DNA of 31,561 nucleotides from a virus, in IMG/VR virus record IMGVR_UViG_3300044691_000352, positions 1 through 31,561 of that record, one strand, 5' to 3'. Positions 4,929-30,956 of the stretch are shown here, in pieces. Position numbers and translations under genes: made by a program. Position 1 is the stretch's first letter, and the number at the start of each line of letters is the position of its first letter. The notes under the pieces are model-generated. The model saw only the letters and a list, made by a program, of their open reading frames with translations. It did not search any database and was not told where the DNA came from.

Positions 4929-5084
4929 ATGTATATCGCCATAGGTTTGGTTATTGCGGTAGTGTTAACTGGGATGGCAATTTACATCATGCTCGATGAA
5001 GATCTTCCTTGCCCCAGCAAAAAGGAACAGCGCCTCTACAGCTATCACGATGGGCATGACTTAGTGCGCGAGCCTAAGAGCTAA
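4929..5084 (+). CDS. 51-residue single-span membrane protein
   Basis: A small gene with an AAGGAGA ribosome-binding site before the ATG at 4929. The product has one membrane segment at residues 2-21 (YIAIGLVIAVVLTGMAIYIM) followed by a charged tail, suggesting N-out, C-in topology. It is the last gene of the rightward cassette and its final 11 nt overlap the 3' end of the convergent lysozyme gene. Closeness to the lysozyme and the single span make it a possible holin or antiholin, but the opposite strand argues against co-expression. Confidence 0.55.
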   Translation: MYIAIGLVIAVVLTGMAIYIMLDEDLPCPSKKEQRLYSYHDGHDLVREPKS

Positions 5085-5604
5085 AACATTGCTGAGTCCA
5101 GGTGTTGCGCCTGAGCCCTATCTGCAGGCGGTGACACTGAGCCTCGGCTACCTGTCCGTTGCCGGTGTTGACGCCGTGATTGAAGTCGGTAAATTTAGAA
5201 AGCCGATGCACGCCCATGTTGTAGCCCATGTCGAGCAGGCCAAGCTTCCATGAATCAGGAAGGCCAGCATAGCCGGGGTATATGGCTGGTAGCGCCCTGT
5301 CCACCAGCATTAGGCGCCGGAGTAGCTCGGCGTCGATCGCAGCATCCGGCAGGGTCAAGTCGCCCTTGTAGCGCCCCGGAGCCATGCCTTTCTGCATCAC
5401 GCTTACCCTGCAGAACTCGGCTGTGATCTCATCATGAGTTGCCGGCCGTCCCGCCTTCAACCATGGCAGCAATAGGGCCGCGGCAACGCTCGGGAGCATG
5501 CATCCGATGCCCGCCGTCACGTGGGCCTCAGTATCGAGATATAACCAATGGATGCGGGCCTCGAATGTCTCCAGCTTTGCAAGTGATTCCTCGATGTAGC
5601 TCAA
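5074..5604 (-). CDS. T4-type lysozyme (GH24 endolysin)
   Basis: A 176-residue muramidase that would cleave the glycan strand of peptidoglycan at lysis. Glu15, Asp24 and Thr30 (FEARIHWLYLDTEAHVTAGI) have exactly the 9- and 6-residue spacing of the T4 lysozyme triad E11, D20 and T26. The C-terminal lobe includes LPDSWKLGLLDMGYNMG, matching the conserved GH24 second lobe. There is no signal peptide, so a holin would be needed. The start is TTG at 5604, overlapping the upstream TGA (TTGA); a near-perfect AAGGAGG lies 5 nt before it and decides the start. It is the last gene of the leftward late operon and the only lysis enzyme visible. Confidence 0.85.
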   Translation of the reverse strand: MSYIEESLAKLETFEARIHWLYLDTEAHVTAGIGCMLPSVAAALLLPWLKAGRPATHDEITAEFCRVSVMQKGMAPGRYKGDLTLPDAAIDAELLRRLMLVDRALPAIYPGYAGLPDSWKLGLLDMGYNMGVHRLSKFTDFNHGVNTGNGQVAEAQCHRLQIGLRRNTWTQQCFSS

Positions 5605-5870
5605 TTATGCCTCCTTGACAGGTCGTAGCATTCCCAGCAGCGGACTGCCAGCCGATACTTCCTGCGGCCGCATTTGCATACTTTATTGGGCTGGTTTTTC
5701 TTCGGATGGTGAGCCAGGATCAGCTTTGCGACTCGCTCCAAGGCTTCCCTGGCATCACGGATGCGCGTCGCCTCCGCATTCACGAGGTCATAAAAGCATC
5801 GGTCGAGCAACTCTGCGAGATATTCAGGATCTTGTGAAGCAATGAATTCCGCCGTGAAGATCGGCTTCAT
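5601..5870 (-). CDS. Small protein with C-terminal zinc-ribbon-like motif
   Basis: An 89-residue protein. The N-terminal 55 residues are helical and acidic (EYLAELLDRCFYDLVNAEAT). The C-terminus holds two Cys pairs, CKCGRRKYRLAVRCWEC, typical of a small zinc ribbon. It contains ALERVAKLILAHHPKK, and a related LERVAKLIHTPKHP stretch is present in the Cys-rich protein at 28920-29324. The gene lies between the beta-helix fibre (3-nt gap after its stop) and the lysozyme (TTGA overlap). Role unknown; DNA or RNA binding is possible. Confidence 0.6.
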   Translation of the reverse strand: MKPIFTAEFIASQDPEYLAELLDRCFYDLVNAEATRIRDAREALERVAKLILAHHPKKNQPNKVCKCGRRKYRLAVRCWECYDLSRRHN

Positions 5871-5873
5871 GCC

Positions 5874-7946
5874 CTACTGAATCCTGCCCTGCATGATGGC
5901 GCCCTGAAACCGCACGAATGATGGTGCAGCGCTCACCGTGGCCGTCCCTGATCCCGATACCGAGCCAATCGTGGCCGTGATGAGCGAAGTTCCGGTAGCT
6001 ACTCCAGTCACAAGGCCGGTAGAACTGTCCACGGTAGCCTTCGCGGGGGTTGCCGACGACCAGACAGGGCTTGCGCAGAGGCCGGAGGATGAATCAGAGT
6101 AGGTCGAGATGCATGCGGGGGTTGCGGTGCCGCCAGCAGCCACTGACGTGGCTCCGACCGCAATCGAGACGAGGGTAGGGGTAGAGGCTAGCTGAAGTGC
6201 CCCAATGGCAGGAGGATTGGGACGCGTTGCGCCGTTGTAGTCGGTTGGGATTCCGGCAATGGTGACTCCTGCCCCCACGACTGCGCTGGCACCTGACGAC
6301 GGGGCCATGTTGCCAAAGCCGTAGACGTGGTAAGTCTCATCCACTAGGCCGGGGTCAGCACATACCGCCGCAGACTCCCCAGGCATGGGACAAGTCCATG
6401 ACCCCGCATTTAGGTATGAGTTATTTGACCACTGAGATCCAGCATGATACAGCGGGGCAATATTAGCAGAGGAGTTTCCGCCGCCTGCAGCTATGCTATA
6501 GATCGGATTTGAATTAGATCCATGGCCTGCATTGAAGAAGCCGAGGAAAGTATTGTTAACATACTTAAATAATTCAGTCCCCGCCCACGCAGGCCCAGCA
6601 TCGAATGGGTCCATTTCAAGGCCGATGTTTCCATCGGAATAGACCGTGTTGTACTCGAACAGGCTAGTAGTTCCAGGCGGAAGCTCCATTAACACGGCAG
6701 TGTTTCCGGCTCGGCAGAAGTTGCTTAGTTGGGTGTTATACCCCGCTGGAGTTCCGGGAATCGCAGTGTGCAGAGCTCCGCAATTGCCGACAATGAGGCT
6801 GTTTTGGATGATCGGTAAAGCACCGCCTACCTTGTACTGGTTCCCCATGTTTCCATAGGCTAGACCGCGCGTGACAGTCATGCTCGATCCAGGGCCACGG
6901 ATGTGTTTAGCGTCTAGGCCGTCCTGCGTGTTGTAGCTTGCGGTTCCCTGGTCGAAATGCACCTGCCAACCGGGCGAAGGGCTATCTACCGAAGCCGTTC
7001 CGAAGCCATCTCCATATCCACCACTAAGGTCATCCGTACAGTGATTGTATGGAAGTGCATCGACAATGGGGTATTCTTCCTGGCAACCATTCCAGCTAAT
7101 ATCGTAGTTGGTGACATTGAAGATTCCCACGCCCGTAGTGCCATCGGAGTGGTCTGTGTTCCATCCGCTTCCGCCATTGCCAACTAGCTGAATATCAGTA
7201 GCATTCATGGGGCCAGTTGGAGTTCCGAGAATGCCGGTGTTGCCAATGCCATGCACGCGGATATGCTGCAGAGTTATGTCGTGTGAGGCGAGAGCGAAAT
7301 CTATGCCATACTTAGCGAAATCAGGATTTGCCCCACCATTACCACCATCGAAGTCGGTAATGTCTAAGCACACCAAATCCAAAAATAAAGAGTCCGAGAA
7401 ATTGACGCTGGTGAATCTCAGCGGTACTCCGATGTTGATGACATTGTCAACGCCAAAGCCGCCGTGTAATTGCGTGCGGGCAGTTTGGGCAGTGCAGTTT
7501 GCGAAGTTACCACCGCGAATTATAGTATGCTGCGCTGAAGTTCCAGATGGAGGTGCAGGCATACCTGAGTCGTTAACGTCATTGCAAATTCCGCGAGCGT
7601 TGGGAGTGGTCCCGCAACCTGCCGCCGTATCCCATCCGATGCGATAAGTCACTCCGTCCGCAATAGACCCGCGAATGGTCACAATATCCCCGCCTGCGAT
7701 GATCCAGTTATAGCCGGGGTTATTGCCCCCGAATTGCTGAGTTCCGTCCTGCCAGAGAAGGCGCACATCGTTGAAGGCGCATGGCTGGTTGACTCCAGAT
7801 CCTGGATAATCCGCGTCAGCCTGACCATTGCATTGTCCATTGGTGATGTTTGTAGAAAAGCGCGTTCCGCCGAGCGGTCGGACATACCAGTTGGTTTGAG
7901 CGAAGACGGGGAGAGAAGAAAGCAGCAATGCGAGAAGTATTTTCAC
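5874..7946 (-). CDS. Secreted right-handed beta-helix fibre/spike with Big2 domain
   Basis: A 690-residue protein. A Sec signal peptide (MKILLALLLSSLPVFA) with probable cleavage at A16|Q17 is followed by a long pectate-lyase-like parallel beta-helix (about 20-585) rich in Asn, Gly and short repeats such as HDITLQHIRVHGIGN. A Big2 Ig-like domain spans about 589-675 (ATVDSSTGLVTGVATGTSLI). It carries 14 cysteines, unusual for a cytoplasmically assembled tailspike. Beta-helix folds in phages bind or cut surface polysaccharide, and no catalytic residues can be assigned here. It could be a tailspike, a secreted depolymerase or a surface adhesin. The GTG start at 7946 (GTGA overlap with the upstream stop, GAGGT 6 nt away) keeps the whole signal peptide. 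Confidence 0.75.
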   Translation of the reverse strand: MKILLALLLSSLPVFAQTNWYVRPLGGTRFSTNITNGQCNGQADADYPGSGVNQPCAFNDVRLLWQDGTQQFGGNNPGYNWIIAGGDIVTIRGSIADGVTYRIGWDTAAGCGTTPNARGICNDVNDSGMPAPPSGTSAQHTIIRGGNFANCTAQTARTQLHGGFGVDNVINIGVPLRFTSVNFSDSLFLDLVCLDITDFDGGNGGANPDFAKYGIDFALASHDITLQHIRVHGIGNTGILGTPTGPMNATDIQLVGNGGSGWNTDHSDGTTGVGIFNVTNYDISWNGCQEEYPIVDALPYNHCTDDLSGGYGDGFGTASVDSPSPGWQVHFDQGTASYNTQDGLDAKHIRGPGSSMTVTRGLAYGNMGNQYKVGGALPIIQNSLIVGNCGALHTAIPGTPAGYNTQLSNFCRAGNTAVLMELPPGTTSLFEYNTVYSDGNIGLEMDPFDAGPAWAGTELFKYVNNTFLGFFNAGHGSNSNPIYSIAAGGGNSSANIAPLYHAGSQWSNNSYLNAGSWTCPMPGESAAVCADPGLVDETYHVYGFGNMAPSSGASAVVGAGVTIAGIPTDYNGATRPNPPAIGALQLASTPTLVSIAVGATSVAAGGTATPACISTYSDSSSGLCASPVWSSATPAKATVDSSTGLVTGVATGTSLITATIGSVSGSGTATVSAAPSFVRFQGAIMQGRIQ

Positions 7947-8674
7947 GGCAGACCTCGCGTAACAAAGCAGGAGTGGACTGCCGGTTGGTAAGTTGCGTTT
8001 TGGTAGATCAGGAGTTCATAATCCGAGCCATTGAAGGGCGTTACTGCTCCACCGTTCCAGTTAGTGAATGCGCGATCAATGGGGTTGGAGATTGCCTGAA
8101 CATTCGTCCCACCTGAGTCGAGAGTGCCGTTGATGTAGAGGCCCCATGCGCCGGTGGAAGAGTTGTATAGCGCAGCTATTTCCGCCGCAGTCCCTGATGC
8201 CACCGTGCCGGTGCTTGTTGCGATGTTTGCCTGATTCTGCCTATCGAGAATCAGATGCCCAGTTGAATCGAAACCAGCCTGAACCGCAGCATTACCTACG
8301 CTTGACGCTGTGAGGTACGAAGCCGCTCCAGTGTTGTTTTTCACGACCGCATAGATGCCGTAAACCGATCCCCCAATAGCTGTGGTGAGTGTCCCATACT
8401 GGCTAGAGCCGTTGAAAGTAGCGCCAGCAAGGCCGGTGCCGAAGGTGTTGTTGGACCACGTCGGACTGCCGGTCATTGCGGTTGTGTTCGACGCTCCGGA
8501 GGTGTCAGGCCACGAAGAGAAGGGGCTGGTGCTGATGGAAGCTGCGGACAGATCGAGCACAAGGCTAGTGGCTGGCATGGTGCAGGAGCCGCCGCCGCCA
8601 CTGCTGGCGATCCCGCCTCTCTGCGGAATGGTGAACTGCAGTAGGAGCAATAGCCCTAGAATTATGTTGGTCAT
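7943..8674 (-). CDS. LamG/ConA-like fibre protein with N-terminal hydrophobic leader
   Basis: A 243-residue protein. The leader TNIILGLLLLLQFTIP is followed by a Gly/Ser linker. The rest reads as a single concanavalin-like jelly roll: FNGSSQYGTLTTAIGGSVYG, then GIYAVVKNNTG, then LYINGTLDSGG and LLIYQNATY. That fold commonly binds carbohydrates. Two cysteines flank the domain (GGGGSC and HSCF) and could pair. The leader lacks a strongly basic start, so export is less certain than for its neighbours. It sits between the other two secreted-type fibre genes, with overlapping or nearly touching junctions, which points to one adhesion module. Confidence 0.65.
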   Translation of the reverse strand: MTNIILGLLLLLQFTIPQRGGIASSGGGGSCTMPATSLVLDLSAASISTSPFSSWPDTSGASNTTAMTGSPTWSNNTFGTGLAGATFNGSSQYGTLTTAIGGSVYGIYAVVKNNTGAASYLTASSVGNAAVQAGFDSTGHLILDRQNQANIATSTGTVASGTAAEIAALYNSSTGAWGLYINGTLDSGGTNVQAISNPIDRAFTNWNGGAVTPFNGSDYELLIYQNATYQPAVHSCFVTRGLP

Positions 8675-8675
8675 G

Positions 8676-9509
8676 TTACCTCGCCGACACGTTGAACGTA
8701 ACTGATGCGCTTGGGGTAATGCTGGCGTTGGTTTGGTTGCAGACTTTGTAATTCAAGGTGTTGGCGGTGGGCCATGCGTCAACGGTCAGGCCGCCAGTCG
8801 AGCCCCACCCCGTGACGCCGCTAATGTCAGCGTTGGGACTAAAAGCGAACGTTGAGGTAGTTGCTACACCGGTCATGGTCACTGTCACAGCGGTAGCGCA
8901 GGTATTCGCAGCAATCGCTGTGACACCCACGGTCGTGGTCGCGTTGGCAATCGCTGCGCCACCATTCACGAAGGCCACATAAGCCGCCCCATTGTGGGTG
9001 TAGCTCATTACCCCAGCCTTCATGCAGAGGTAATCTTTGCCGGAAACCGGGGTGGGGCAGGTCGCATCGCCACCTGAGCCGGTCGCGAAACCATAGGCAG
9101 AATTGTTGACCGTATCGGTAGCAAGCAAAGCCGTGACATCGGAGGAAGTTGCGGCCCTCGGTGCGGCAGATGTGCTCCAGAACCCCAACCCGTTGAATGG
9201 CGTCACTCCTCCCACCACCGTCCCGCTGGAGGTGTAGTAGGCCGGGGATAGCGCCAGACCTGAAACAACCGTGCCAGATCCGCTCCCCCCGCTGCCTCCC
9301 TGCACCACCCACGCCTTATTGCTGCAGGAATACCCCTGCACTGGAGTCGCAGAGATGTCTAAATACGTGAATGCACCCACGCATACCCCAGAGGGAGGGG
9401 TATATCCGAAACATGAATTCTGCTGGCAGCGCTCCTGCGAGCTCTGGGCAGACGCCTTGTGTGGGCACAGGAAGAGCGGTATCAGCAGCAAAAACGCGAG
9501 TTTATTCAT
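8676..9509 (-). CDS. Secreted-type tail fibre / receptor-binding protein
   Basis: A 277-residue protein with a classical signal peptide: MNK, hydrophobic LAFLLLIPLFL, cleavage motif ASA|Q at residue 21. The mature part has eight cysteines, a Gly/Ser hinge near residues 70-82 (QGGSGGSGSG), and a C-terminal beta domain with TVTMTGVATTSTFAFSPN, GLTVDAWPTANTLNYKVC and SASVTFNVS. The C-terminal pattern is one I associate with short fibre and head-fibre tips in soil phages (memory). It has an AGGAG ribosome-binding site and is the first gene of the secreted fibre trio. Function as adhesin is inferred. Confidence 0.65.
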   Translation of the reverse strand: MNKLAFLLLIPLFLCPHKASAQSSQERCQQNSCFGYTPPSGVCVGAFTYLDISATPVQGYSCSNKAWVVQGGSGGSGSGTVVSGLALSPAYYTSSGTVVGGVTPFNGLGFWSTSAAPRAATSSDVTALLATDTVNNSAYGFATGSGGDATCPTPVSGKDYLCMKAGVMSYTHNGAAYVAFVNGGAAIANATTTVGVTAIAANTCATAVTVTMTGVATTSTFAFSPNADISGVTGWGSTGGLTVDAWPTANTLNYKVCNQTNASITPSASVTFNVSAR

Positions 9510-9560: not shown

Positions 9561-9695
9561 ATGCTGGGGTCCGAGGTTTTTATGCTCACGATTGCCGGTG
9601 GAATTCTGATTTCCGTTGTTGCGTTTTTCTTGATTGGAGCGGTGGGCGTGGGCGCATGGCTATTGCGCGGCATGTGCAAAGCCACTAACGGCTAG
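9561..9695 (+). CDS. Tiny single-span membrane protein (44 or 37 residues)
   Basis: A rightward frame in the gap between two leftward genes. An ATG at 9561 (AGAGGT just upstream) or 9582 (GAGG 5 nt upstream) opens a product with one strongly hydrophobic segment, IAGGILISVVAFFLIGAVGVGAWLL split over residues 11-35, and a short basic tail. Its last 11 nt overlap the 3' end of the convergent gene at 9685, exactly like 4929-5084 against the lysozyme. A holin-like or toxin-like peptide is possible. The call rests only on hydrophobicity and RBS, and no clear promoter is seen. Confidence 0.4.
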   Translation: MLGSEVFMLTIAGGILISVVAFFLIGAVGVGAWLLRGMCKATNG

Positions 9696-11412
9696 TGTTC
9701 TTGGGGGCATAGAACAGCGGATTGGCCTGCAGCGGTGGAGTTGGCAATTTGCGAAGCGCATTACCTGCATTCATGCCGGACTGAGAGAATAGACCCGGCC
9801 TCGCGTTCAGCGGCGTCTCTGTTGGATTCTGGAAGCGATCGACCGCCGAATTTACCAGCGCATCATGGTTGGTCAGCTTCTTCAAGCCCTCCTGCACCAT
9901 GTAATTCCATGCCATGCTTGCAGGGTTTCCATGTCCCGCGACTATCTTCTGCGAGAGTGTCACAGGATCATGCCGCGCGTAGACGGGCTCTCGCTTGTTG
10001 GCTATGTCGGAAACATCGGAGAGCATGCCGTATTTGCTCTGCATGTCCGAAACTGTACCAGGCTGGAGCCCTGCATCCTGCTCTAGCTGCGGATACAGGG
10101 TATCGCGAGTCGAATCGCCTACCGCCTTTACTCGGGCCGTCTCTGGATTGGAAAGAGCCGCGGCGCGGTCCCCGCCTGTCTTGTTGTAGAATGCGTTCAG
10201 CTTCGCATTTGCATCCTCTCGAATCTGATCCAGTACAGGAACTGACATGTTCTTGCGGTAATTGTCGGCTACAGCCGCCGTCTTGTTCATGATTCCACCC
10301 GGAGCGGTTCCCGCCGTCGGTGCCCCCATGTTCATGGTCCCGCCTTCTCCGTCGGGGATGCTGAACAGCTTCGTTCGGGTCGCTCCTGGAGTTGACGGCT
10401 GCTCGATCCTGTCCATCATGGGAACGCTGCGCATTTGGGCATCAGCTATCGGTCCACCGAATAGCGAACTAGGGCGCACCGGGCCTTCGCCTCCTCCAGC
10501 CGGGAGCCTGTAGGGAGAGATTAGGTCGTTGTAGGGCTGGAAAGAGGCTTCCTTAGCTGCATCCGAAGCCTTCGCAAATCCAGATATTCCCTGAAGTTTA
10601 GGGTCCGCCGCTAGAACGTCAGGAAGCGACTTTTCTAGCATTTCACCAGCGCCAGCGCCATACTTCACGCCGGGCTTTAGGGCGCTCTGAAGAAGTTCCC
10701 CCGGCGTGCCCTTGGTGATAATCCGCGTTGTGGCAAGATTCCTGCTAGCGTTGTCCGCGGATGCCAGACGTGCAACTTGAGCCCCGCCGCGGATGGCTGC
10801 GGTTCCGAGCTTACCAGCAACCTTCGGGGCCAGCATGTCGGTTCCAAGCCCGAAAAGAGATGGAACCGCCCCGTAGGTCTGAGCGTCATTCTCGATACTT
10901 CTAGCCCATGGTCCGGCAACAGGAACGGCGTCCATGAGGCTAGATGCAACGCTGGGCCTGTATTTGTTGTCGGCATCATATGGTGCGCCAGCGATGTTCC
11001 CCGCTTTGTACTGATTCCCGGCCTCGCGCAGTGCTGAAACCGTAGGCTGCACAAATGCCCGGTCCATCTGAAGTGCCCCGGCCCCGAGTCCATTAGCGAT
11101 ATTCTCCTCAGTCCCTGACGGTGGAGCGGTAATTGTCGAGGCTACTCCGGTCGCAAAGTTCTTGAGGTGCTGGCCGACGACGGTGCCAGTATTCCTCAGA
11201 GGTTGGTCCCCGAGTAGCCGGGTCATGGCGCCGGGGATGGCCGACTCTTGCATATTGGGAGGAGCTTGCGTCGGGAATCCTGGAGTTCCAAGAGGTCCGG
11301 CGCCAGCTACGGTAGGTGTCGGGGCGGGCTGCACGGATGCAACGCCCCACGGATCGGCGGCGGGAGATGCCGTTACTGACTTCACTCCCCAAGGATCAGG
11401 TGCCTGTGCCAT
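9685..11412 (-). CDS. Internal virion / DNA-ejection type protein
   Basis: A 575-residue Ala/Pro/Gly-rich protein with no cysteine. The first 27 residues hold two copies of DPWGVxSV (residues 6-13 and 20-27), a short repeated linear motif seen at the ends of large phage internal proteins. The middle has helical stretches (ASLMDAVPVAGPWARSIEND) with a GLG-TDML-type amphipathic region. It follows the 558-residue protein at a TAATG junction and precedes the fibre genes. By position after the tail genes and by composition it matches proteins that are packaged and ejected with DNA in podoviruses, such as the P22 gp16/gp20 group. Homology is not visible by eye. Confidence 0.55.
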   Translation of the reverse strand: MAQAPDPWGVKSVTASPAADPWGVASVQPAPTPTVAGAGPLGTPGFPTQAPPNMQESAIPGAMTRLLGDQPLRNTGTVVGQHLKNFATGVASTITAPPSGTEENIANGLGAGALQMDRAFVQPTVSALREAGNQYKAGNIAGAPYDADNKYRPSVASSLMDAVPVAGPWARSIENDAQTYGAVPSLFGLGTDMLAPKVAGKLGTAAIRGGAQVARLASADNASRNLATTRIITKGTPGELLQSALKPGVKYGAGAGEMLEKSLPDVLAADPKLQGISGFAKASDAAKEASFQPYNDLISPYRLPAGGGEGPVRPSSLFGGPIADAQMRSVPMMDRIEQPSTPGATRTKLFSIPDGEGGTMNMGAPTAGTAPGGIMNKTAAVADNYRKNMSVPVLDQIREDANAKLNAFYNKTGGDRAAALSNPETARVKAVGDSTRDTLYPQLEQDAGLQPGTVSDMQSKYGMLSDVSDIANKREPVYARHDPVTLSQKIVAGHGNPASMAWNYMVQEGLKKLTNHDALVNSAVDRFQNPTETPLNARPGLFSQSGMNAGNALRKLPTPPLQANPLFYAPKNTSR

Positions 11413-14135: not shown

Positions 14136-14332
14136 CCCGCCGCGATCATGCGGTTGCGCAATAGTGTGGCCGCCGCGTCCGTATCGGTAAGAATCTGCGC
14201 TATGGCTGCATTCACATCCGGCACGCCGTTCAAATAAAGGGTGTGTGCAGAGACGTTCCCAAAGGAGTCCTGAACGTTCACCATCACCGCGCCGTGCTGT
14301 AGATCAAATGTCCTAGAAAGTTCTTTACTCAT
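14123..14332 (-). CDS. 69-residue protein after the FN3/Hint fibre gene
   Basis: Starts at the ATG of an ATGA junction with the preceding gene; a longer frame to 14458 runs inside that gene and is rejected. The product has two beta strands (FDLQHGAVMVNVQDSFGN), then a helix at PDVNAAIAQILTDTDAAATL. It has no cysteines and no recognised domain. Its coupling to the fibre gene and position before the GNAT-like protein suggest a small virion component or assembly helper. Confidence 0.55.
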   Translation of the reverse strand: MSKELSRTFDLQHGAVMVNVQDSFGNVSAHTLYLNGVPDVNAAIAQILTDTDAAATLLRNRMIAAGWTP

Positions 14333-16212
14333 GGCAAATCCGCCTTTGAATTGTGTATCCGCACCATGCTCGGTCCAGCGTGATAGACCCCGCCTGGGCA
14401 GGTTCGTTTGACCTTTACGCCTTTGCCTTTGCAGTAATCGGCAATGCCGGTGCGCCACAGTCCGCCCTTGACTTCGATCCGATCAAACACCGTCAATTCC
14501 CGCGCCTTTTTGAACACAGAAACCAGCGTATCGGGGTGCATGGAAAGAGGTCCGTCGCCGCAATCAAGGACTATCCAGTCCTCGCAGGGCAAAAGTTCCT
14601 CGATCGTGCCTTCGGGAACCTCCACGATCGTTCCCTCTTCGACGCAGCCGCCGCGATAACCGCCACCGCCACCGGTGGGGCCTCCGCCGCCCGTTACTCC
14701 TGGGCTCCCTCCACCTACCACGGCGACACTTGGGGCTGTCGTGTATCCCGTCCCGCCGTTCGTCACGGTGTAGCTCACGACTCCGCCGCCGCTGATGTTG
14801 CCCGTCGCCTGCGCCCCTGAGCCGCCTCCGCCAGTGAAATTCACGCTCGCCGATCCATAGCCTGAACCTACGGCGCCCGGATTTACCTGAATCACATGGC
14901 CCAGCCCATCAATGACCGCCGTGGCCGTAGCTCCAGACCCTACTACACCCGTCGCGTTGGTCGTGATGAACGTACCGATGTACTCATAGCCGTCTGGAAG
15001 GGTCGAAGGGTAGGTTGTGACTGCAATAAATGCCGTGCCGGTCCAGAGAGCAACGTATTTCGTGGTGTAGGCAAGCCCGCTTATCGTACCGTTCGGTCTG
15101 GTCAGCGTTCCGAAGCCTGTAAGTCTGGTGTAGCTCGTACCGACCCCGCCAGCGCCGTAGATGCGAGCAAGGGCACTTCCGCCAGTGTCGATTGAATCAA
15201 TTGTTGCCGTGTTCGTGGTGTTCGATGGAACGTTCGGCGGGACTGTCGCTGAGGTGAAGAGGATCGTCGGGAAAGCAGGGAGAGACGGAAGGCTATCCCC
15301 CACTGAGTTCGTCGCGATGATGAAATACTCGCCATCCCCCAAGAGGCCGTTCGTGTCGAGATACTGCACCGTGCCTGCCGTGCTGGTAACTGTCGCCAGA
15401 AGGATGGCCGTGAGGAAGCTGTCCCCCCGCTGCGCACGGTAAATCTTGTACGTCGGCCCGGCGTCTAGGCTGGACTGAAAGCTGATCTGGTTTCCGGTTG
15501 CGATCTGCGTAACAAGAACGCCTTGGACTGCTGCCGGGACGGTCGCGGAACCGCTAAGGGTCAGGGTGGTTGTCGGTCCAGATGCTGCCTCCGCGCCTCC
15601 TGCGGATACGCCGATGGCCTTGAGGGTGATCGTCTCACCAGTGGCGTCTAGACTGAACTGGATGGGGCTTCTAGACTGCTGCGAGACTGCCACGAAAGCG
15701 GGGTTTCCGTGGTAGTTCTGCACGTAAATCTTGACGCTGGGCGAAGAGGCCGTGACGTTGACCGTAACGCGAAGCACGCCGTTTGTGATGGCCCCGTGCG
15801 AAGCGGAAATAGAGGTTGCCGGGATGGGTGCGGCTGTCTGTGGGTTCAGGAGGATAGATTGCGGCCCCACCTGCACTAGAGTTCCTGAAGTGCCTTGCGG
15901 AATCAGCCGGATCCAGTAATAAGCCGTTGCCTGCGCCTGCAGTGAAATGCTGGTGTCTGAATAGGTGAAGTCCGCCAGCGCGGGAAACCATGATTGAATC
16001 GCTATGGCCGTGTTCGGGTCGAGGACGTTATTGCGGTAGAGGGCGATTCCCGATATGCCAGTGAGGTCGTTCAGGGTGAAAGTAACGTCGATGCCTGAAG
16101 TGACTGGGTTGGACGCAGCCTTGAAACCAGAGACTGCGTTGGCCGAAATCGTTGGCGAAGATACGATCCGCGCGAGCTGCACCGCCTGAGTTGCACTGAT
16201 GGCCTCACTCAT
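14329..16212 (-). CDS. FN3-type fibre/host-specificity protein with C-terminal Hint-like module
   Basis: A 627-residue protein, probably a distal tail or fibre protein. Residues about 30-320 form two or three FN3-like sandwiches (ISFQSSLDAGPTYKIYRAQR is the clearest). About 430-510 hold the glycine-rich beta repeats common in phage fibres (TVTNGGTGYTTAPSV), then a Gly linker. The last 105 residues begin at Cys523 (CVEEGTIVEV), contain HPDTLVSVF (H559) and ELTVFDRIEV (D577), and end MVRIHN-S with H620 and N621. These match, in order, the N-terminal Cys block, the histidine block and the C-terminal HN of Hint/intein domains, although 99 residues is very short. There is no cysteine before 523. 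The start is the ATG of an ATGA overlap at 16212. Confidence 0.65.
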   Translation of the reverse strand: MSEAISATQAVQLARIVSSPTISANAVSGFKAASNPVTSGIDVTFTLNDLTGISGIALYRNNVLDPNTAIAIQSWFPALADFTYSDTSISLQAQATAYYWIRLIPQGTSGTLVQVGPQSILLNPQTAAPIPATSISASHGAITNGVLRVTVNVTASSPSVKIYVQNYHGNPAFVAVSQQSRSPIQFSLDATGETITLKAIGVSAGGAEAASGPTTTLTLSGSATVPAAVQGVLVTQIATGNQISFQSSLDAGPTYKIYRAQRGDSFLTAILLATVTSTAGTVQYLDTNGLLGDGEYFIIATNSVGDSLPSLPAFPTILFTSATVPPNVPSNTTNTATIDSIDTGGSALARIYGAGGVGTSYTRLTGFGTLTRPNGTISGLAYTTKYVALWTGTAFIAVTTYPSTLPDGYEYIGTFITTNATGVVGSGATATAVIDGLGHVIQVNPGAVGSGYGSASVNFTGGGGSGAQATGNISGGGVVSYTVTNGGTGYTTAPSVAVVGGGSPGVTGGGGPTGGGGGYRGGCVEEGTIVEVPEGTIEELLPCEDWIVLDCGDGPLSMHPDTLVSVFKKARELTVFDRIEVKGGLWRTGIADYCKGKGVKVKRTCPGGVYHAGPSMVRIHNSKADLP

Positions 16213-18176
16213 GGCGTACCCGAGTACATCGCCTTGTGCCACACGATTGTCTTGAGCACGATTTCATCAAACAGGCCACCCGGCATGACCACCGTGAACC
16301 GGATGTAACGGCCCACGTTCAGCCCTTTCACCTGCAGGTCTCCCCTGATGGCATATTGAGACACGCCGTTGGGCGAAGGGACGAGGGAGAGGTTCAGCAA
16401 AATCCATGTCGCAGGATCTTCGGCCGACTCTGAAACCGCAGCATAGACCTTGAAATTAGCAACGGGGCCACCTAGGTCCAACATGGAAATGTCTCCCTGA
16501 AGGAACAGGTCCACCCAGTAAAAGCGCGTCTTGCCTTCCGTCCCCAAAAGCGTCCAAGGGCTGGAAAAGCTCGATTCGTAGAGGTTTCCGTTGTCTTGAA
16601 ATCCATCGGGGAAACGAAAGACATTGCCGCTGGCATCGCCGAGGAAGACGAAGGGCTGATTCGAGACTTTCACGAGAGCCGCGTTGGTCATGCTGCTCGA
16701 AGGGATCTTGTCAGTCTGGTAAAGTCCTCCGATCTGGTTGTAGAAGGAGGACGTGCCGGTAAGCTGGCCGTCGCTCTGCGAGCCCTTTACGGGGATCGAC
16801 CAAATCTGCATGAGGTTCATGTTTGCATCAGGAGCATCCGTAGTCCGCGCGAGGAGCACTAGGATATGCACCTTCCCATAGCTGTACCAGAGAAGTCTTG
16901 CACTGGGGAGGTCGATTGCGCTCAAATCCTCCATGCCGTAAGTGCCGGGGTAGGCCTGCGCAACCCCTGAAGAAATCTCGGTTGGCGTACCGGTTCCATT
17001 CCAAAGCCACAGCCTCTTTGACTGCGATAGGTAGGCAATCCCGAAAGGCGTCTTGCACTGCGCGAATCCTCCCACGGTCCCCGGCTGCGCAACCTCATCC
17101 TGCTCGGTGAAGGTGGTAGCGTCGTAGCCCGCATATTGGTACTTGGAGTCTGCGGTATCGACCGTCAGGACCGCGCCGGTGGGGAGTTTGAGGGTGATGG
17201 CTGCAGTGGCCTGCCGGCTGCCGGCCGGGATGTTGAAGAACAGGCTGAGCGGCCAAGCCTCTTCGGGGATTCCCAAGTTGATTTCGGAGAAGCCTGAGAG
17301 TCTGATTTGGTTCACATTCACCGCCGCCACCCGATTCTGGAAGGTCGTCAGGATGGCAGAGGGAGGGGCCGGGTTGTTGTCGAACGGCGCCAGGCGGGTC
17401 TGGTCGAGGTTGGAGTCCAAAAGAGAATCACCAAAGCTCGTGGTCGCATTCGTGATTTCCGCTGCGAAAAAGAATGTCGAGGAGGTATCAACCGGCGAGT
17501 CCGACGTAGCAAAGATCCACTTGAAATTCACCTGCGGATCGGTCGAAATCGCGATCAAGCCGAGATTCACGACCTGCGACGCGATTGGTCCGGTGTGCGC
17601 AGAAAGTCCGGACGGAGGCCCGATTGAAACCCTCTGAACACCGAGAGAATCGGTGTATTTAGAGACATTGCAGACCACGTAACGGCGTCCGAAGGCCAAA
17701 GTCAGCGTGCCGGGGCTGAGGGAGATGGTAGGAGCGGTAGCGGGTGCAATGATGCCCCACGTGTACTTCGTCAAGACGCCAGCTACATCTACAAAGCGGT
17801 AGGCATTGACGCCGTTGGAGGCGTAGCAGATGAAAGAGTTCTGCACGAATTGAAACGGGACGGATGATTCCCCAGTCGAGAGCACGACCTGATTCGAGCC
17901 ATCCATATTCGAGACGATGAGCTGCGGACCTGAATGGGTCATCAGGAACTGCTTTGCATCAACATTGCGCTCGAAATCGAACTGGCTATAGACCGGACCC
18001 GGGCCAATCTTCGCCACCAGCGTATAGCCCGGTGCGCGCCGGACCTGATTGTCCGCCAGGATCATGATGTTCTTGGCTGAAAGCAGGGTGCCTGGAGTGG
18101 CGTCGGTGAGGTTCTGAGCTGTGTTCTTGCCGGTAAAGGCCGTCATTGTCGCTGGGATCAATCCACGAATTGCCAT
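16209..18176 (-). CDS. Tail nozzle / hub protein, beta-propeller-like
   Basis: A 655-residue beta-rich protein. The N-terminal segment (TPGTLLSAKNIMILADNQVRRAPGYTLV) is typical of P22 gp10-like and T7 gp12-like proteins, where a short 'npGEL...RPGY' lead-in precedes repeated blades. Further blades include FQNRVAAVNVNQIRLSGFSE, GIAYLSQSKRLWLWNGTG and FVFLGDASGNVFRFPDG, and the end (YIRFTVVMPGGLFDEIVL) is a jelly-roll-like stretch. It would plug the tail after DNA packaging. The gene comes after the adaptor and a small gene, with TAATG and ATGA overlaps, in the P22 order. I am fairly sure of the class, not of a homologue. Confidence 0.65.
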   Translation of the reverse strand: MAIRGLIPATMTAFTGKNTAQNLTDATPGTLLSAKNIMILADNQVRRAPGYTLVAKIGPGPVYSQFDFERNVDAKQFLMTHSGPQLIVSNMDGSNQVVLSTGESSVPFQFVQNSFICYASNGVNAYRFVDVAGVLTKYTWGIIAPATAPTISLSPGTLTLAFGRRYVVCNVSKYTDSLGVQRVSIGPPSGLSAHTGPIASQVVNLGLIAISTDPQVNFKWIFATSDSPVDTSSTFFFAAEITNATTSFGDSLLDSNLDQTRLAPFDNNPAPPSAILTTFQNRVAAVNVNQIRLSGFSEINLGIPEEAWPLSLFFNIPAGSRQATAAITLKLPTGAVLTVDTADSKYQYAGYDATTFTEQDEVAQPGTVGGFAQCKTPFGIAYLSQSKRLWLWNGTGTPTEISSGVAQAYPGTYGMEDLSAIDLPSARLLWYSYGKVHILVLLARTTDAPDANMNLMQIWSIPVKGSQSDGQLTGTSSFYNQIGGLYQTDKIPSSSMTNAALVKVSNQPFVFLGDASGNVFRFPDGFQDNGNLYESSFSSPWTLLGTEGKTRFYWVDLFLQGDISMLDLGGPVANFKVYAAVSESAEDPATWILLNLSLVPSPNGVSQYAIRGDLQVKGLNVGRYIRFTVVMPGGLFDEIVLKTIVWHKAMYSGTP

Positions 18177-20205: not shown

Positions 20206-21456
20206 TTAGGCGGCGTAAGCGGGATTGCTGGTCGCGTAGGCCAGGGTATCGGCGCAAACGAGCTGGTTGGGGTTGGTATAAAGCATGTTTCCGAACTCGC
20301 GCACATATGCACGATAGGCCATGAAGCCGGGGTCCCACTTGAGAACGGTTCCGTCCAGATCGCCGAAGCCCAGCGGAGAGACTTCGCCGAACTTGATGGT
20401 GTCCTTCTTGAGGCCGTAAATGAGGGAACTCGGGACATCCACTTCCTTGATGAAGTCCTTGTCTCCGAACTTCAGGGTGCTGAACCCCTTATCCATCTTC
20501 ATCTCGGTGAAACGCTTCTGAGCAAACGACAGGGCCTCGTAAGCATCGAACTGGGCGAACCCAGCCAGATACTCATCGAGCTCCACGCCGGAACGACGCG
20601 TAACCACGGACTGCATGGAGCGCAGGATGCTTTCGGTCAGGGGCTGACCTGCGGCATTGATGCGGCTCGCTGCGAGCAAGGGGAAGGTGGAAGTGCTGAG
20701 GCCCTGGAAGGTGGTTGCCTGATTATGCGTGACACCGTAGAAGCCGATATACGACTTGTTGACGCGCCCGCCTCCGCGCACCACAATGTCTCCGGTGGTC
20801 GTAGTGACCGAAGCCGAAAGCACCACGGTTGCAGCACCGCCGCCAGAAGAAGGAGTGATCGAGTTCACGGTTGCGCCCGCTCCACCTGTGCGGCTGGTGG
20901 TGAGGGTCGAATCGTAGACGTCGATGACATCGTTCTGCTGCAGGTAGAGCGAGCCATACTGACCGAAGCCAGTACCAACCGCAAGGGTCTGCGTGGCCGA
21001 GGCTACGCCGGTTGCGATGGTGGACAGGATACCCGAACCATCTCCCGCCACGAGATCGATGTTGATGATCTTGAGCATGTCGCGGGTGATGCCAGAGATT
21101 TCGTCCTCTTTGTGAGAGATGAAGCTCTGGAAGTTCTTGGTGGCGTTGTCCATGTCCTTCTCAAACATGCGGATCTGGCCCGAGTAGCCGCGGTCGAACT
21201 GCGTGAACTTCTTCTCCTGTTGACGAAGAGCAGTCGGCAACGGATCGTCCGAGGCTGTAGGTGCAATGCCGCCGCGGTTTCCACCGATGCGGGCCGGGAA
21301 TTCGAAGTGATCGCCAGGCGAGCGGTAGAACTCATTGTCGGCCTTCCCGTAACGCTTCCGGGAGAATGCCGTCATGTTCTGCTGCTCCACCACGCGGGGG
21401 CCAAAGGTTGCCTTGAGGAGTCCCCCGATACGAGTAATAGTTCCTGCATCTGCCAT
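20206..21456 (-). CDS. Major capsid protein
   Basis: A 416-residue protein, expected to form the icosahedral shell with an HK97-type fold. Features consistent with this are an N-arm region followed by FRSP-type loop (FYRSPGDHFEFPARIGG), the E-loop-like FTQFDRGYSGQIRMFEKDM, a spine helix (DEISGITRDMLKIINIDLV), an inserted Gly/Ser/Thr-rich beta segment at about 185-235, and a P-domain end (GFMAYRAYVREFGNML). Position after scaffold and before adaptor fits. It is followed by a strong terminator and preceded by a structured 119-nt leader. GGAGAC is the RBS. Only one cysteine. Confidence 0.75.
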   Translation of the reverse strand: MADAGTITRIGGLLKATFGPRVVEQQNMTAFSRKRYGKADNEFYRSPGDHFEFPARIGGNRGGIAPTASDDPLPTALRQQEKKFTQFDRGYSGQIRMFEKDMDNATKNFQSFISHKEDEISGITRDMLKIINIDLVAGDGSGILSTIATGVASATQTLAVGTGFGQYGSLYLQQNDVIDVYDSTLTTSRTGGAGATVNSITPSSGGGAATVVLSASVTTTTGDIVVRGGGRVNKSYIGFYGVTHNQATTFQGLSTSTFPLLAASRINAAGQPLTESILRSMQSVVTRRSGVELDEYLAGFAQFDAYEALSFAQKRFTEMKMDKGFSTLKFGDKDFIKEVDVPSSLIYGLKKDTIKFGEVSPLGFGDLDGTVLKWDPGFMAYRAYVREFGNMLYTNPNQLVCADTLAYATSNPAYAA

Positions 21457-23113: not shown

Positions 23114-25339
23114 TTAGTTAGCTCCTGATGTGTGTGGAATTGATGCAAAACCTTCTGTCTCCGCTGCCCTTTGAACCTGCGGCGTCGAAACCTGAATGCC
23201 TGGAGTCTGCCCCATCACGTGGCTCGGCGATGGGCCTGCAACGCCTCCTTTGGCCTGCTGCTGCTGGGTCGGCTTAGGCAGGGTCGCGTGCGGCGGCGTG
23301 CCGGTCGGCGGTGCTCCGGGAGGCGGTGGTGCGCCCGGTCCCAAGTTTGTCGCCGGAGGGTTCATGATTTCCTGAATCCACTGGGTGTATGCCAACACGC
23401 CAGCCTGGGTTTTAGGGTCGAGGCCTTCGAACTCCTCGGTCTTCGTGTACTGGCTGAAGACTTTGAAGTGGATCGGCCAGTTGCTGTACGGATTCGCCTG
23501 GGGCGTGATGCCCTGCAAGGAAACCTGCAAGTCTCTCTCAGCCTTCGAATAGTCGAGGTTGTCTGCGAGGTCGAAGTCTTGCACCCCAAGTTCATCGGTA
23601 ATGTAGACCCTCACTCCCGGGTCTGTCGTATCGACCATTCCCGCCTCTTGCAGGGTCTGCAAAACCTCCAGCTTCTCAGTCAACGTCTTTGGCCGGCTGG
23701 AATCAGGCACAACGTCAAGCTCGTATTCGCCCATCAGGTCTGCGGCCTCGAGCAGCTTCGCTCCCATGCGGTTATTGAATCCGGCCGTCTGGATCTTGCG
23801 CGGCGTCGTCCAAATCTTCTTCGCCATCTTCAGAATCTTCCGAGCCCGTAAGGTGTGAGCCTGCTCCCAGAGGTAGCGTTGAGTCTTCCTGCTCTCCTCC
23901 GTCTTGGCCGACGCAAAGGCTAGAGCCCTGAACGCCGGTGCGCCGGATGGCATGTCGCCCTCGGCAACCGCATTCGTGAATCCAAGCGCCTCAAAGTCTG
24001 CAACGATCTGCGCTCGCTTTGCCATCAGTTCGGTGCCATAAGCCTTGCCGCCGAAGTATTCAGGCTTGACCTTGCCATCTCCGAGCGGATCCCACTTCGT
24101 AATTTCAACCGGATCGCCCGTTGGCGCCGGGGTGCTCTGAGTGGTCGGCCACAGGAGCTTTACGACCGCGTTCGACATCAGAGCCCGCTCCATCAGCGAG
24201 TCCAGGCGGTTCAACTGCTTCTGAAGGGGTATCAGCTCGGTGGGAAGGCCCTTCGGATAAGGGCTGGCAACATCCTTCTGCCACGGAAAGAACGTGTACT
24301 CGCAATCTCCGTCCCATGGGTTCTCGCCCCACTCAATGACGTCGTTCTTATACAGAATCGCAAACAGTCCGAACTCAATTGCGGCCTCAGCCTTAGACAT
24401 GTTCGGGTACATCTGCGAAGGTTCGGCCCATTCCTTCTCTATCGCGTCCTGAACATCATCATCTAGTTCGCTCCAGTCACACCAGACCTCGGTAATGGTG
24501 CACATCTTTGCGTCTGGATCCACATTTGAGGAGTAAGCCAAAGACCTGAGCGAATTGTGGAAGAAAGATGCCAGCGACTCGCCGCTCTTGTCCTCCGAAT
24601 CGTCGCCGGTGAACTTCTCCTCGTAATTTGGGTACTTCTCCTTCGCCTTCCCGATGGCAAGTCTAGGCCTTGCAATCACAATAGGCGTCAAGTTCGGGTC
24701 TTTGCAGTCCCTGGGAAGATAAACCTCGAACACCGTCGGCAAATCGGTATCCAGCCGAGCCGACGGCACCTTCTGAGTACCCACAACCTGCGGCTCCTGC
24801 TCCATTGGCTGACCGTCCGGCCCCGGCTGAGGCTCTGGTGTCTGAATATCAGGAACTTCGTCCGTCGAATGATCGAATGCGACCGAATCCTTCGTGATTC
24901 CAAGGCCCCAGAGGACAACTTGCCGCGCCAGGGTGGGGTTCAGGACGTTCATGCCTGATTCTTCATTGGCTGCGTCGATCGCATTCATAGCCGCCTCTGC
25001 TGCACGGCGGTTCTTGGCGTCGTAGTTGTCCGACTTGCCCTGCATTTCAGGAACTGCCGCGCCAAGGGCGTTGGCATTGGTGGAGATGGTCTTCGAGAAG
25101 TGGTTCGTGACCGGCATCGGCCATTTCTTGCTGGAATCGACCTTCACCGGCTGGAGTCGCTTGCCGCCGTCGCCAGAGCTCTCCAGCCACTGCTTGAGCT
25201 GGTCGAACATGCCAGCCTGGAACCACTCTCTTTCTTCAGCCCAGCGCCCTCTTGAGAGCGATTTGAAGCGCTTATCCACCCATGCAGCGAGGGCGGTCTG
25301 CGCTGGGGTCTGCTGTGGCGCTTCTTGTTCTTCGGCCAT
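23114..25339 (-). CDS. Portal protein (P22 gp1-like)
   Basis: A 741-residue protein expected to form the dodecameric DNA entry ring. Typical P22-portal features are an acidic wing region with SLSRGRWAEEREWFQAGMF, a strand core including CTITEVWCDWSELD, a clip/stem with LIPLQKQLNRLDSLMERALM, and a late helical crown (RKILKMAKKIWTTPRKIQTA) followed by a Pro/Gly tail (PPPPGAPPTGTPP). GGAG precedes the ATG. It sits between the fibre/methyltransferase insertion and the decoration-like gene, in the order portal, small genes, scaffold, capsid. It is longer than siphovirus portals, as expected for this class. Confidence 0.8.
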   Translation of the reverse strand: MAEEQEAPQQTPAQTALAAWVDKRFKSLSRGRWAEEREWFQAGMFDQLKQWLESSGDGGKRLQPVKVDSSKKWPMPVTNHFSKTISTNANALGAAVPEMQGKSDNYDAKNRRAAEAAMNAIDAANEESGMNVLNPTLARQVVLWGLGITKDSVAFDHSTDEVPDIQTPEPQPGPDGQPMEQEPQVVGTQKVPSARLDTDLPTVFEVYLPRDCKDPNLTPIVIARPRLAIGKAKEKYPNYEEKFTGDDSEDKSGESLASFFHNSLRSLAYSSNVDPDAKMCTITEVWCDWSELDDDVQDAIEKEWAEPSQMYPNMSKAEAAIEFGLFAILYKNDVIEWGENPWDGDCEYTFFPWQKDVASPYPKGLPTELIPLQKQLNRLDSLMERALMSNAVVKLLWPTTQSTPAPTGDPVEITKWDPLGDGKVKPEYFGGKAYGTELMAKRAQIVADFEALGFTNAVAEGDMPSGAPAFRALAFASAKTEESRKTQRYLWEQAHTLRARKILKMAKKIWTTPRKIQTAGFNNRMGAKLLEAADLMGEYELDVVPDSSRPKTLTEKLEVLQTLQEAGMVDTTDPGVRVYITDELGVQDFDLADNLDYSKAERDLQVSLQGITPQANPYSNWPIHFKVFSQYTKTEEFEGLDPKTQAGVLAYTQWIQEIMNPPATNLGPGAPPPPGAPPTGTPPHATLPKPTQQQQAKGGVAGPSPSHVMGQTPGIQVSTPQVQRAAETEGFASIPHTSGAN

Positions 25340-25396: not shown

Positions 25397-26140
25397 ATGC
25401 AAAAACTTGCTAAGAGGATCGCAAGATCCGGGCTATTCTTCCTGTCGAAGCTAGAGTCGGTATTCGATAATGCTTATCTGAACCATGAAGTGCCGCTCTC
25501 AAAGCGAATTGACGTTTCAGTGCTCCCCGAATACGTAAAGTCCCAAAACGGCAAGAAGCTGCGCGTCCTTGAAATCGGAAGCAGAGAAGTGACCGGCCCG
25601 TCAACAATGCGGGAGAGGTTTTCCGATGCGGAGTATGTTGGTTTCGACATCTACGCTGCCCGCAATGTGGATGTCGTTGGAGACGTGCACCGCCTCTCTT
25701 CTTACTTCGAAGGCGTGGAGAAGTTCGACATCATCTACACGGTTGCCTGCTTTGAGCATTTTGCGATGCCCTGGGTGGTTGCCACCGAAATATCCAAGAT
25801 GCTGAAGGTAGGGGGAGTCGTATGCGTTGCAACTCACTTCTCTTTCAGCGCACATGAAAGGCCGTGGAACTTCTTCCAGTTCAGCGACATGGGACTGCGT
25901 GTCCTGTTCTCGAATGCCCTTGGCTTTGAGTGCATCGACGCTGGCATGTCGAATCCAATCGTTGGCCGATTCTCAAGGCTCGCAGACAAGAATCTCCGCA
26001 ACGTGCCGGTCAGAGGGCTTTACTGTGGCAGTGAGTTTGTAGGACGCAAGGTTCGGGAGGAGCTAGACTTCGACTGGAACAAGGTATCTGTCGGAGACGT
26101 TGTTTCGGGGACAACCTATCCTGCCCCTAGTTGTGGATGA
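25397..26140 (+). CDS. Class I SAM-dependent methyltransferase, cargo gene
   Basis: A 247-residue methyltransferase of the Methyltransf_11/23 kind. The SAM-binding strand is VLEIGSREVTGPS, which lacks the usual GxGxG; the acidic ribose residue is in YVGFDIYAARNVD; motif IV is FDIIYTVACFEHF; then comes LKVGGVVCVATHFSFSAHER. The last part (PWNFFQFSDMGLRVLF) recalls methyltransferases of surface-polysaccharide clusters. The substrate is likely a glycan or envelope molecule, which would fit lysogenic conversion or protection from re-infection (inference). It is rightward in a leftward operon, has its own promoter, and overlaps the fibre gene end by 14 nt. The composition suggests an insertion. 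Confidence 0.75.
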   Translation: MQKLAKRIARSGLFFLSKLESVFDNAYLNHEVPLSKRIDVSVLPEYVKSQNGKKLRVLEIGSREVTGPSTMRERFSDAEYVGFDIYAARNVDVVGDVHRLSSYFEGVEKFDIIYTVACFEHFAMPWVVATEISKMLKVGGVVCVATHFSFSAHERPWNFFQFSDMGLRVLFSNALGFECIDAGMSNPIVGRFSRLADKNLRNVPVRGLYCGSEFVGRKVREELDFDWNKVSVGDVVSGTTYPAPSCG

Positions 26141-28919: not shown

Positions 28920-29324
28920 CTAGTAGCTCTGCTGGGTGAGCAGCTGGCTGTATGTTCGGTCGTCTTCGCCGCGGGCCTTCTTGCAGGCCTTCAGGTACTC
29001 TTTGTGGCGGGATTCACGGTCGTAAACCGCTTGAATGCAGGAGCGGCATAGCATTTTGAAGCGGAATGTCGTCTTCCCGTCTACCAAGACTTTCCAACCC
29101 TCTGTGATTAACTTAGGCTCTAGCTGCCCCTCGGGGTGCTTGGGGGTGTGGATCAGCTTCGCCACTCGCTCCAGCTTCAGAACTTCGTGCGCAAGCTTGG
29201 GGCAGCGATCGTGATGTGTTTCAGGACGCTCGTCTGCATCTGGCCGGCAGAGCTTGGGGTTGCACTTCGTCTCGTAATCGACGATGCAGCGATCGGGCTT
29301 GGAGCAGGACTCACATACTCGCAT
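28920..29324 (-). CDS. Cys-rich protein, probable multiple zinc-binding sites
   Basis: A 134-residue basic protein with Cys clusters at the N-terminus (CESCSKPDRC) and elsewhere (CNPKLC, CRSCIQAVYD), suggesting two or three zinc sites. It also contains LKLERVAKLIHTPKHP, similar to a stretch of the 89-residue protein at 5601-5870. The ATG is inside the end of the terminase gene (14-nt overlap) with a strong AAAGGAGG. Its role near the packaging genes is unknown; DNA binding is plausible. Confidence 0.6.
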   Translation of the reverse strand: MRVCESCSKPDRCIVDYETKCNPKLCRPDADERPETHHDRCPKLAHEVLKLERVAKLIHTPKHPEGQLEPKLITEGWKVLVDGKTTFRFKMLCRSCIQAVYDRESRHKEYLKACKKARGEDDRTYSQLLTQQSY

Positions 29325-30699: not shown

Positions 30700-30956
30700 A
30701 GATTGACGATGATCTGAGCGATCGATTCGCCTTTGCTCGTCATATCTACTGCCTGTGCGGGCTTGCCAAATGCCCGATTGTTCCACTCAATGAAGGCCTT
30801 GAAAGCCAACTCATCATCTTCATGGGCGAGGAATTTGCGCCATCGATTCTTTTCCTGCTCTTCGGAGAGCAATCCGAGCGCTGCGCTTTTACGCAAGAGA
30901 TTGACTTTATTAGGCTTTCTCCCAGCCCCTGGAGTCTTGCCACCCTTACCCGCCAT
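30696..30956 (-). CDS. Terminase small subunit-like DNA-binding protein
   Basis: An 86-residue basic protein. The N-terminus MAGKGGKTPGAGRKPNKVNL is the 'GAGRKP' leader common to terminase small subunits. It is followed by helices (LGLLSEEQEKNRWRKFLAHE, LAFKAFIEWNNRAFGKPAQA) in which 'RAxGKPxQ' is a frequent TerS ending. It would recognise the packaging site and hand DNA to the large subunit, whose start overlaps its stop. The ATG at 30956 is used; a longer frame to 31004 starts inside the previous gene. Confidence 0.65.
   Translation of the reverse strand: MAGKGGKTPGAGRKPNKVNLLRKSAALGLLSEEQEKNRWRKFLAHEDDELAFKAFIEWNNRAFGKPAQAVDMTSKGESIAQIIVNL

Follow-up and report, generated by a model that had tools for sequence, protein, structure and literature searches.

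Why would a tailed phage equip its fiber-like proteins with signals for export? The usual assumption is that folding and assembly of tail fibers take place in the cytoplasm. In the IMG/VR virus record IMGVR_UViG_3300044691_000352, analyzed here over all of its 31,561 bases (the window), three adjacent fiber-like genes on the minus strand code for proteins of 690 amino acids (aa), 243 aa and 277 aa (5874-7946, 7943-8674 and 8676-9509), and the original prediction took all three for proteins that are exported by the Sec system and disulfide-bonded. We propose that this fiber cassette is exported, cleaved and disulfide-bonded, and attached to virions after export, a reading of the sequences to which we give somewhat better than an even chance.

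The three open reading frames, their positions and their hydrophobic starts were confirmed, and a ribosome site, GAGG or AGGAG, lies 4-6 nt ahead of each start. Two of the three N-termini are textbook Sec leaders ending in Ala and followed by Gln: the 690-aa protein begins at a GTG codon, six bases downstream of GAGG, with the 16-codon leader MKILLALLLSSLPVFA (7899-7946) before QTNW, and the mosaic 277-aa protein begins at an ATG, four bases downstream of AGGAG, with the 21-codon leader MNKLAFLLLIPLFLCPHKASA (9447-9509) before QSSQ. A fourth fiber-like leader protein of 647 aa (26127-28070, minus strand) lay outside the range of the original prediction and had been missed; its leader MRKLLMMLLMTGMAGA, which ends in MAGA, precedes QTIA. 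These three proteins have a charged n-region, a hydrophobic core, an AXA-type cleavage site and Gln at the first mature position (P1′). The claim of a Sec leader is doubtful for the 243-aa protein, whose N-terminus MTNIILGLLLLLQFTIPQ was negative in our rule-based predictor because it has neither an N-terminal positive charge nor a good site for signal peptidase I. We saw no lipobox in any member of the trio.

The cysteine counts on which the original prediction had built were also correct. The mature parts of the trio contain 14 (690 aa; all of its cysteines are mature), eight of nine (277 aa) and two cysteines (243 aa; Cys31 and Cys236 only), and the mature 647-aa protein contains 14. The internal virion proteins of 575, 558 and 215/240 aa have none, the major capsid protein has one, and a leaderless fiber of 637 aa (14329-16242, minus strand) has none before residue 533. 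Three even counts alone say little, as they arise by chance in one case out of eight.

The 690-aa protein is found again, with its leader kept, in the IMG/VR contigs L002 and L003 at 73% and 67% identity. Only a three-gene module is common to these contigs and the window, the available remainder being without detectable similarity: the 690-aa gene, the gene of an 89-aa protein that travels with it (5601-5870, minus strand; 94% identity in both contigs) and that of a possibly lysozyme-like 176-aa protein (5074-5604, minus strand; 73-81% identity), for which family searches gave no significant match. The upstream fiber genes that L002 and L003 have of their own bear leaders likewise. Three annotated phages isolated on Tunturiibacter (Acidobacteriota), namely Tunturi_1, Tunturi_2 and Tunturi_4, encode relatives of the 690-aa protein under the annotation “virion structural protein”. 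Entire fiber cassettes bear leaders in the IMG/VR relatives and in these cultured isolates: gp12, gp13, gp14, gp16 and gp17 in Tunturi_1 and Tunturi_2; gp113, gp114 and, if an upstream start is taken, gp111 in Tunturi_4. This start of gp111 (L005:6558-9653) adds the leader MNRISKAIGLCALALSVGSSYG followed by Q, similar to gp113, and the annotated start is probably too far downstream. Tunturi_1 gp78 (L017:3744-4946), a protein of 400 aa from the early region that is annotated as a tail protein, has a lipoprotein-like leader (LLLTGC). The main text of the paper on the isolates does not mention signal peptides, fibers or spikes, and names proteomics only as future work (PMC11924767). The order of genes, with internal virion genes leading to a leader-bearing fiber, is the same in the relatives as in the window, where the 277-aa gene comes first after the cysteine-free internal virion genes and directly follows that of the 575-aa internal virion-type protein (9685-11412, minus strand). 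Prophages of Terriglobia, too, often have a cysteine-free gene as the upstream neighbor of their leader-bearing tailspike.

Signal peptides were called with a rule-based predictor built for this analysis; prior to the relaxation of one rule, it had found 11 out of 12 known signal peptides of E. coli. The set studied comprised 69 different genes with a leader and a minimum length of 150 aa, taken from the window, the Tunturi phages and the IMG/VR relatives. Hydrophobic N-termini arising by chance were ruled out as an explanation, as shuffled N-termini were called leaders at a rate of 0.9% overall and 3.2% if the composition of the leader genes was used. The idea that translation really begins downstream of the leader was dismissed as well, because ribosome sites are rare there: Shine-Dalgarno sequences of four or more bases precede 44 out of 69 leader starts compared to 6 out of 64 next in-frame starts.

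The original prediction had called for a count of cysteines in homologs. The mature count is even in 62 of the 69 leader proteins (binomial p=2e-12), and in 20 out of 20 if only the window, L002, L003 and the Tunturi phages are regarded. After thinning at 50% identity 56 out of 63 leader proteins are even, and the leaderless genes, thinned in the same way, are near chance (127 out of 281). The difference is also present among proteins with at least six cysteines (48 out of 51 with a leader, 52 out of 94 without), and the leaderless fiber and tail genes of the Tunturi phages, tallied by hand, are even in 5 out of 15 cases. Shared ancestry was rejected as the source of the parity, whose significance survives thinning and a reduction to one protein per homology cluster (22 out of 28, p=0.002). 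The family of beta-helix proteins to which the 690-aa protein belongs was rejected as its only source, given 44 even counts among the 51 leader proteins outside this family. In 27 proteins the leader itself has an odd number of cysteines; here the mature chain is even in 23 and the whole chain in four, so it is the cleaved chain that shows the parity.

This bears on the idea that the hydrophobic N-termini are uncleaved anchors, which tether the fibers to the inner membrane during assembly. The N-terminus of the 243-aa protein, without charge and cleavage site, would suit such an anchor. However, AXA-type sites are found in most leaders, the cleavage point lies between a small residue and Gln in 47 of the 69 proteins, and the parity excludes the leader cysteines. 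We consider anchors very improbable.

A further argument arises from a virion-binding domain. In the 372-aa fiber of L002 the leader is followed by a domain whose profile, made from leader-bearing rows only, matches the tailspike head-binding domain of PDB entry 7eeq (E=1.7e-8). The authors of the paper on PBR31 describe the corresponding N-terminus of its tailspike as an apparent virion-binding domain similar to that of P22 and Sf6 (PMC10975493). Six phages of other hosts, named or environmental, have a gene that begins at the domain itself. A leader precedes the domain in 9 out of 9 hits in Terriglobia genomes and 6 out of 6 IMG/VR contigs, compared to none out of one other acidobacterial and 1 out of 13 proteobacterial hits; in all, there are 15 out of 15 for Terriglobia and IMG/VR against 1 out of 20 elsewhere (Fisher p=5e-9, a value to be taken as a guide only, since related prophages are not fully independent). 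One of the positives, L087, was counted by eye (MKRILCLLVLALPMMA followed by Q) and is negative in the predictor. As a check on selection bias we note that one of the two IMG/VR search patterns falls in the leader; L078, L080 and L081 do not contain this pattern and were thus found via the mature pattern. In five leader-bearing fibers with the head-binding domain the leaders, 16-19 aa long, differ in sequence and the mature start is conserved (for example QVPVAPIVQPHVTFVN). Divergent leaders before a conserved mature start are the mark of a working signal peptide, as which these leaders are predicted. Two conserved cysteines (PCAGC) are present in the leader-bearing rows of the alignment and absent from the leaderless ones.

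According to the original prediction, conserved mature regions without a leader would speak against export. Such copies do exist, but they occur in phages of other hosts, so the leader tracks the host lineage. The leaders could still be relics, kept from captured host genes for secreted proteins, with the fibers acting in the cytoplasm in the ordinary way, and the 690-aa protein does belong to a secreted family of the host. Yet leaders are also carried by phage-type fibers with a head-binding domain, which are leaderless in the phages of other hosts. Furthermore, the leader sequences diverge while the leader features persist, and the cysteine parity fits the cleaved chain. We give relic leaders hardly any credence. 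Three independent comparisons, namely leader divergence, parity of the cleaved chain and the host-linked leader on the head-binding domain, thus support the predicted export and disulfide bonding, and we regard export and oxidative folding of the putative leader proteins as well supported.

The fibers themselves appear to be built from exchangeable parts. The 277-aa protein ends in 74 residues (204-277) that recur with 80% identity at the C-terminal tip of the 918-aa fiber L067_5815, residues 187-277 of the 277-aa protein (a match of about 91-94 residues) correspond to the tip of the 707-aa leader fiber L080_7216 at 41% identity, and its residues 106-187 match gp113 of Tunturi_4 at 40% identity. 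Together with the shared 690-89-176 module this points to a modular exchange of distal parts, as in tail fibers. The 647-aa protein has segments in common with the leader proteins L081_6001, L067_11947 and L074_4559, and a scan of IMG/VR with the protein gave no relatives; none were found for the 243-aa protein either. The second fiber genes of four relatives (L002:6261-9782, L003:6551-8482, L078:7208-10351 and L080:7216-9339) combine a leader and a constant mature start, QVQ(L/I)GK.VQ.G, with distal parts that vary. We read this start as a putative constant attachment end with an exchangeable tip.

To find out where the 690-aa protein comes from we searched bacterial genomes. A scan with the single copy of L002 gave no hit, and a profile from a six-row alignment gave 39 loci, nearly all of them in Terriglobia. 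The host copies that were read in detail lie among genes for glycosyltransferases, polysaccharide deacetylases, UDP-sugar dehydrogenases and acyltransferases, often next to each other, and the host family members are cysteine-rich and have a leader or a lipoprotein signal. The 690-aa protein is 47-51% identical to one host paralog over approximately 540 residues, and gp17 and gp114 of the Tunturi phages are 55-63% identical to the other. Tunturi_1 infects strain X5P2, in which one paralog shares about 47% identity with the window protein and the adjacent one 63% with Tunturi_1 gp17. Exopolysaccharide clusters with adjacent copies of both exported paralogs, one window-like and one gp17/gp114-like, were seen in L021, L022 and L023 (Edaphobacter/Tunturiibacter). 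In a tree of 81 sequences phage and host copies interleave, and the well-supported branches call for no fewer than 10 switches between them. The tree does not prove which way each transfer went, and host flanks may be part of some IMG/VR contigs.

The architecture of the 690-aa protein comprises a beta-helix-type core (residues ~18-585), a Big_2 immunoglobulin-like domain (596-671) and the C-terminal tag FQGAIMQGRIQ. Pfam Beta_helix matches were obtained for 3 out of 18 family members. A search of PDB with the beta-helix profile gave no solved relative, and we made no use of the structure predictions, which had a predicted local distance difference test (pLDDT) score of 27 for the 690-aa protein (3-row alignment) and of 31 for the L002 fiber (two rows). 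Several phage copies possess a Big_2-type domain, and several end in a short tag (GxVxhxGxhxhQ-like) found in 0 out of 59 host copies. Its carriers are L058, L059, L067, L073, gp14 of Tunturi_1, gp114 of Tunturi_4 and the window protein (5874-7946), with alternating hydrophobic residues and Gly (SGSVVIQ, SGAVSVQ, QGRIQ, QGARIQ); it could perhaps be a docking or trimer tag. Judged by this kinship, the 690-aa protein most likely cuts or binds host exopolysaccharide, and the depolymerase that the original prediction had listed as one option fits it.

This raises the question of whether the proteins enter the virion at all. They could be exported and disulfide-bonded, and act as free depolymerases or adhesins that clear or bind exopolysaccharide, for progeny phages or for neighbors, during infection or at lysis. 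The presence of the 690-aa family, with export leaders, in host polysaccharide clusters is in line with this, as are the separate leaderless fiber of the window and the failure of family searches to recognize a head-binding or other virion-attachment domain in the window trio. On the other hand, in the relatives the leader directly precedes a tailspike head-binding domain, the tips of long fibers contain distal modules also seen in the 277-aa protein, and several phage beta-helix copies have the tag that host copies do not have. In Tunturi_1 no leaderless fiber or spike was recognized, which favors use in the virion there. We consider free proteins unlikely overall, but they are the alternative to be taken most seriously.

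Attachment to virions after export, as we propose it, is strongly suggested for the relatives with a head-binding domain, which the option of fibers added after export fits best, and more weakly for the window trio. The absence of a recognized attachment domain from the trio and the additional leaderless fiber of the window phage weigh against it, and so do several further points. Leaderless fibers are present in Tunturi_3, in the first 50 kb of Tunturi_5 and in L100, an acidobacterial hit outside the Terriglobia set, and export is thus not obligatory. The leader of the 243-aa protein is atypical and doubtful. For the window portal no relative was found in 399 Terriglobia genomes, the host of the window being only inferred.

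In our reading, the window phage is temperate and podovirus-like, and its host is most likely a Terriglobia acidobacterium. An integrase gene lies at 1432-2508. The late operon is on the minus strand and runs from the large terminase (29311-30786) over the portal (23114-25339), the major capsid (20206-21456) and the tail and internal virion genes to the trio; the 647-aa gene sits between its portal and terminase ends. A scan of IMG/VR with the capsid gave no relatives. Between the portal and the 647-aa fiber gene, on the opposite strand, a gene for an S-adenosylmethionine-dependent methyltransferase (25397-26140; phrog_32762, E=1.5e-8) looks like an inserted accessory gene. Residue 533 of the 637-aa fiber opens a cysteine-containing C-terminal part (CVEEGTIVEV...), termed Hint-like in the original prediction, and no relatives of this fiber were found among the sets compared. 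The integrase could indicate that the leader proteins are made by the prophage for lysogenic conversion, as surface adhesins, receptor blockers or superinfection exclusion factors, similar to Lom of lambda, a protein with a signal peptide whose gene is flanked by tail genes (PMC12309495). But the leader genes are of fiber type, there are several per phage within the late structural operon and on its strand, and they also occur in plaque-forming isolates, and lysogenic conversion seems quite improbable to us.

Under the proposed route of export followed by attachment, the host Sec system would translocate the fiber proteins and signal peptidase I would trim them, mostly exposing an N-terminal Gln. 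The proteins would then fold and form their disulfides in the oxidizing periplasm. The fibers released at lysis would encounter completed particles and bind to their tails, in the way of spikes and fibers that are added last. P22 tailspikes can be added in vitro to finished tailless heads, which makes a late attachment plausible. The 690-aa member would be a beta-helix protein from a family that the host exopolysaccharide clusters also encode. It is comparison that establishes the predicted leaders, the parity of the cleaved chain, the link of the leader to the host lineage and the kinship with the host cluster proteins; from it we infer cleavage and disulfide formation in the cell, attachment to virions after export and an enzymatic activity.

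Several known systems resemble the cassette in part. As in tailspikes of the P22/Sf6/Pam1 type (PDB 7eeq), the relatives have a head-binding domain at the mature N-terminus, variable distal parts and cysteine-free internal virion genes ahead. The classical tailspikes, however, begin with this domain and have no leader, whereas the phages of Terriglobia put a Sec leader first, and the window trio differs in having no recognized head-binding domain. The beta-helix proteins of the Terriglobia exopolysaccharide clusters share family, export signals and cysteine richness with the phage copies, but the latter are part of fiber cassettes, and several have the Big_2-type domain and a C-terminal tag absent from host copies. 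Phages of Porphyromonas gingivalis have genes with Sec leaders in which cleavage exposes Gln (PMC10367356), but these are genes of unknown function, not fibers, in phages of Bacteroidota. This Q-rule was defined in Bacteroidota (PMC5837995), and the relatives described here lie in Terriglobia genomes and Tunturiibacter phages. A likeness outside Acidobacteriota is provided by BcepC6B gp19 (L082:3001-4074) and PBR31 orf035 (L011:5154-5963), fiber-like podovirus proteins with a Sec-like leader beside a tailspike or fiber gene. They differ in their proteobacterial hosts (Burkholderia, Xanthomonas) and in that the stretch read has one such protein per phage; their C-terminal domain, ending in IRARRVR, occurs on leaderless fibers in Klebsiella and Pectobacterium phages. 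This suggests that the trait occurs singly in proteobacterial phages, too. Among the proteins of tailed phages, signal-peptide and signal-arrest-release endolysins and Lom rely on host Sec as well, but they are lysis or membrane proteins and not receptor-binding fibers. Phage Sec leaders are known for endolysins (PMC6116005), for Lom and for the P. gingivalis phage genes; searches of an open-access library gave no report of leader-bearing tail fibers as a class, subscription papers being outside the search.

For annotation this means that leader-bearing fibers may pass for secreted proteins of the host; for gp111 of Tunturi_4, the start seems to have been set downstream of the leader. In a wider sense, phages of Terriglobia might complete their receptor-binding apparatus outside the cytoplasm, from parts that are exported by Sec, stapled by disulfides in the periplasm and docked at lysis, with the enzymatic member repeatedly recruited from exopolysaccharide-processing genes of the host; on this general statement our judgment is evenly balanced. 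If it is true, the host-linked switch to Sec export would represent a new assembly route for tailed phages. It would also explain how disulfide-rich fibers can be made, and how exported polysaccharide enzymes of the host could be used as tail parts.

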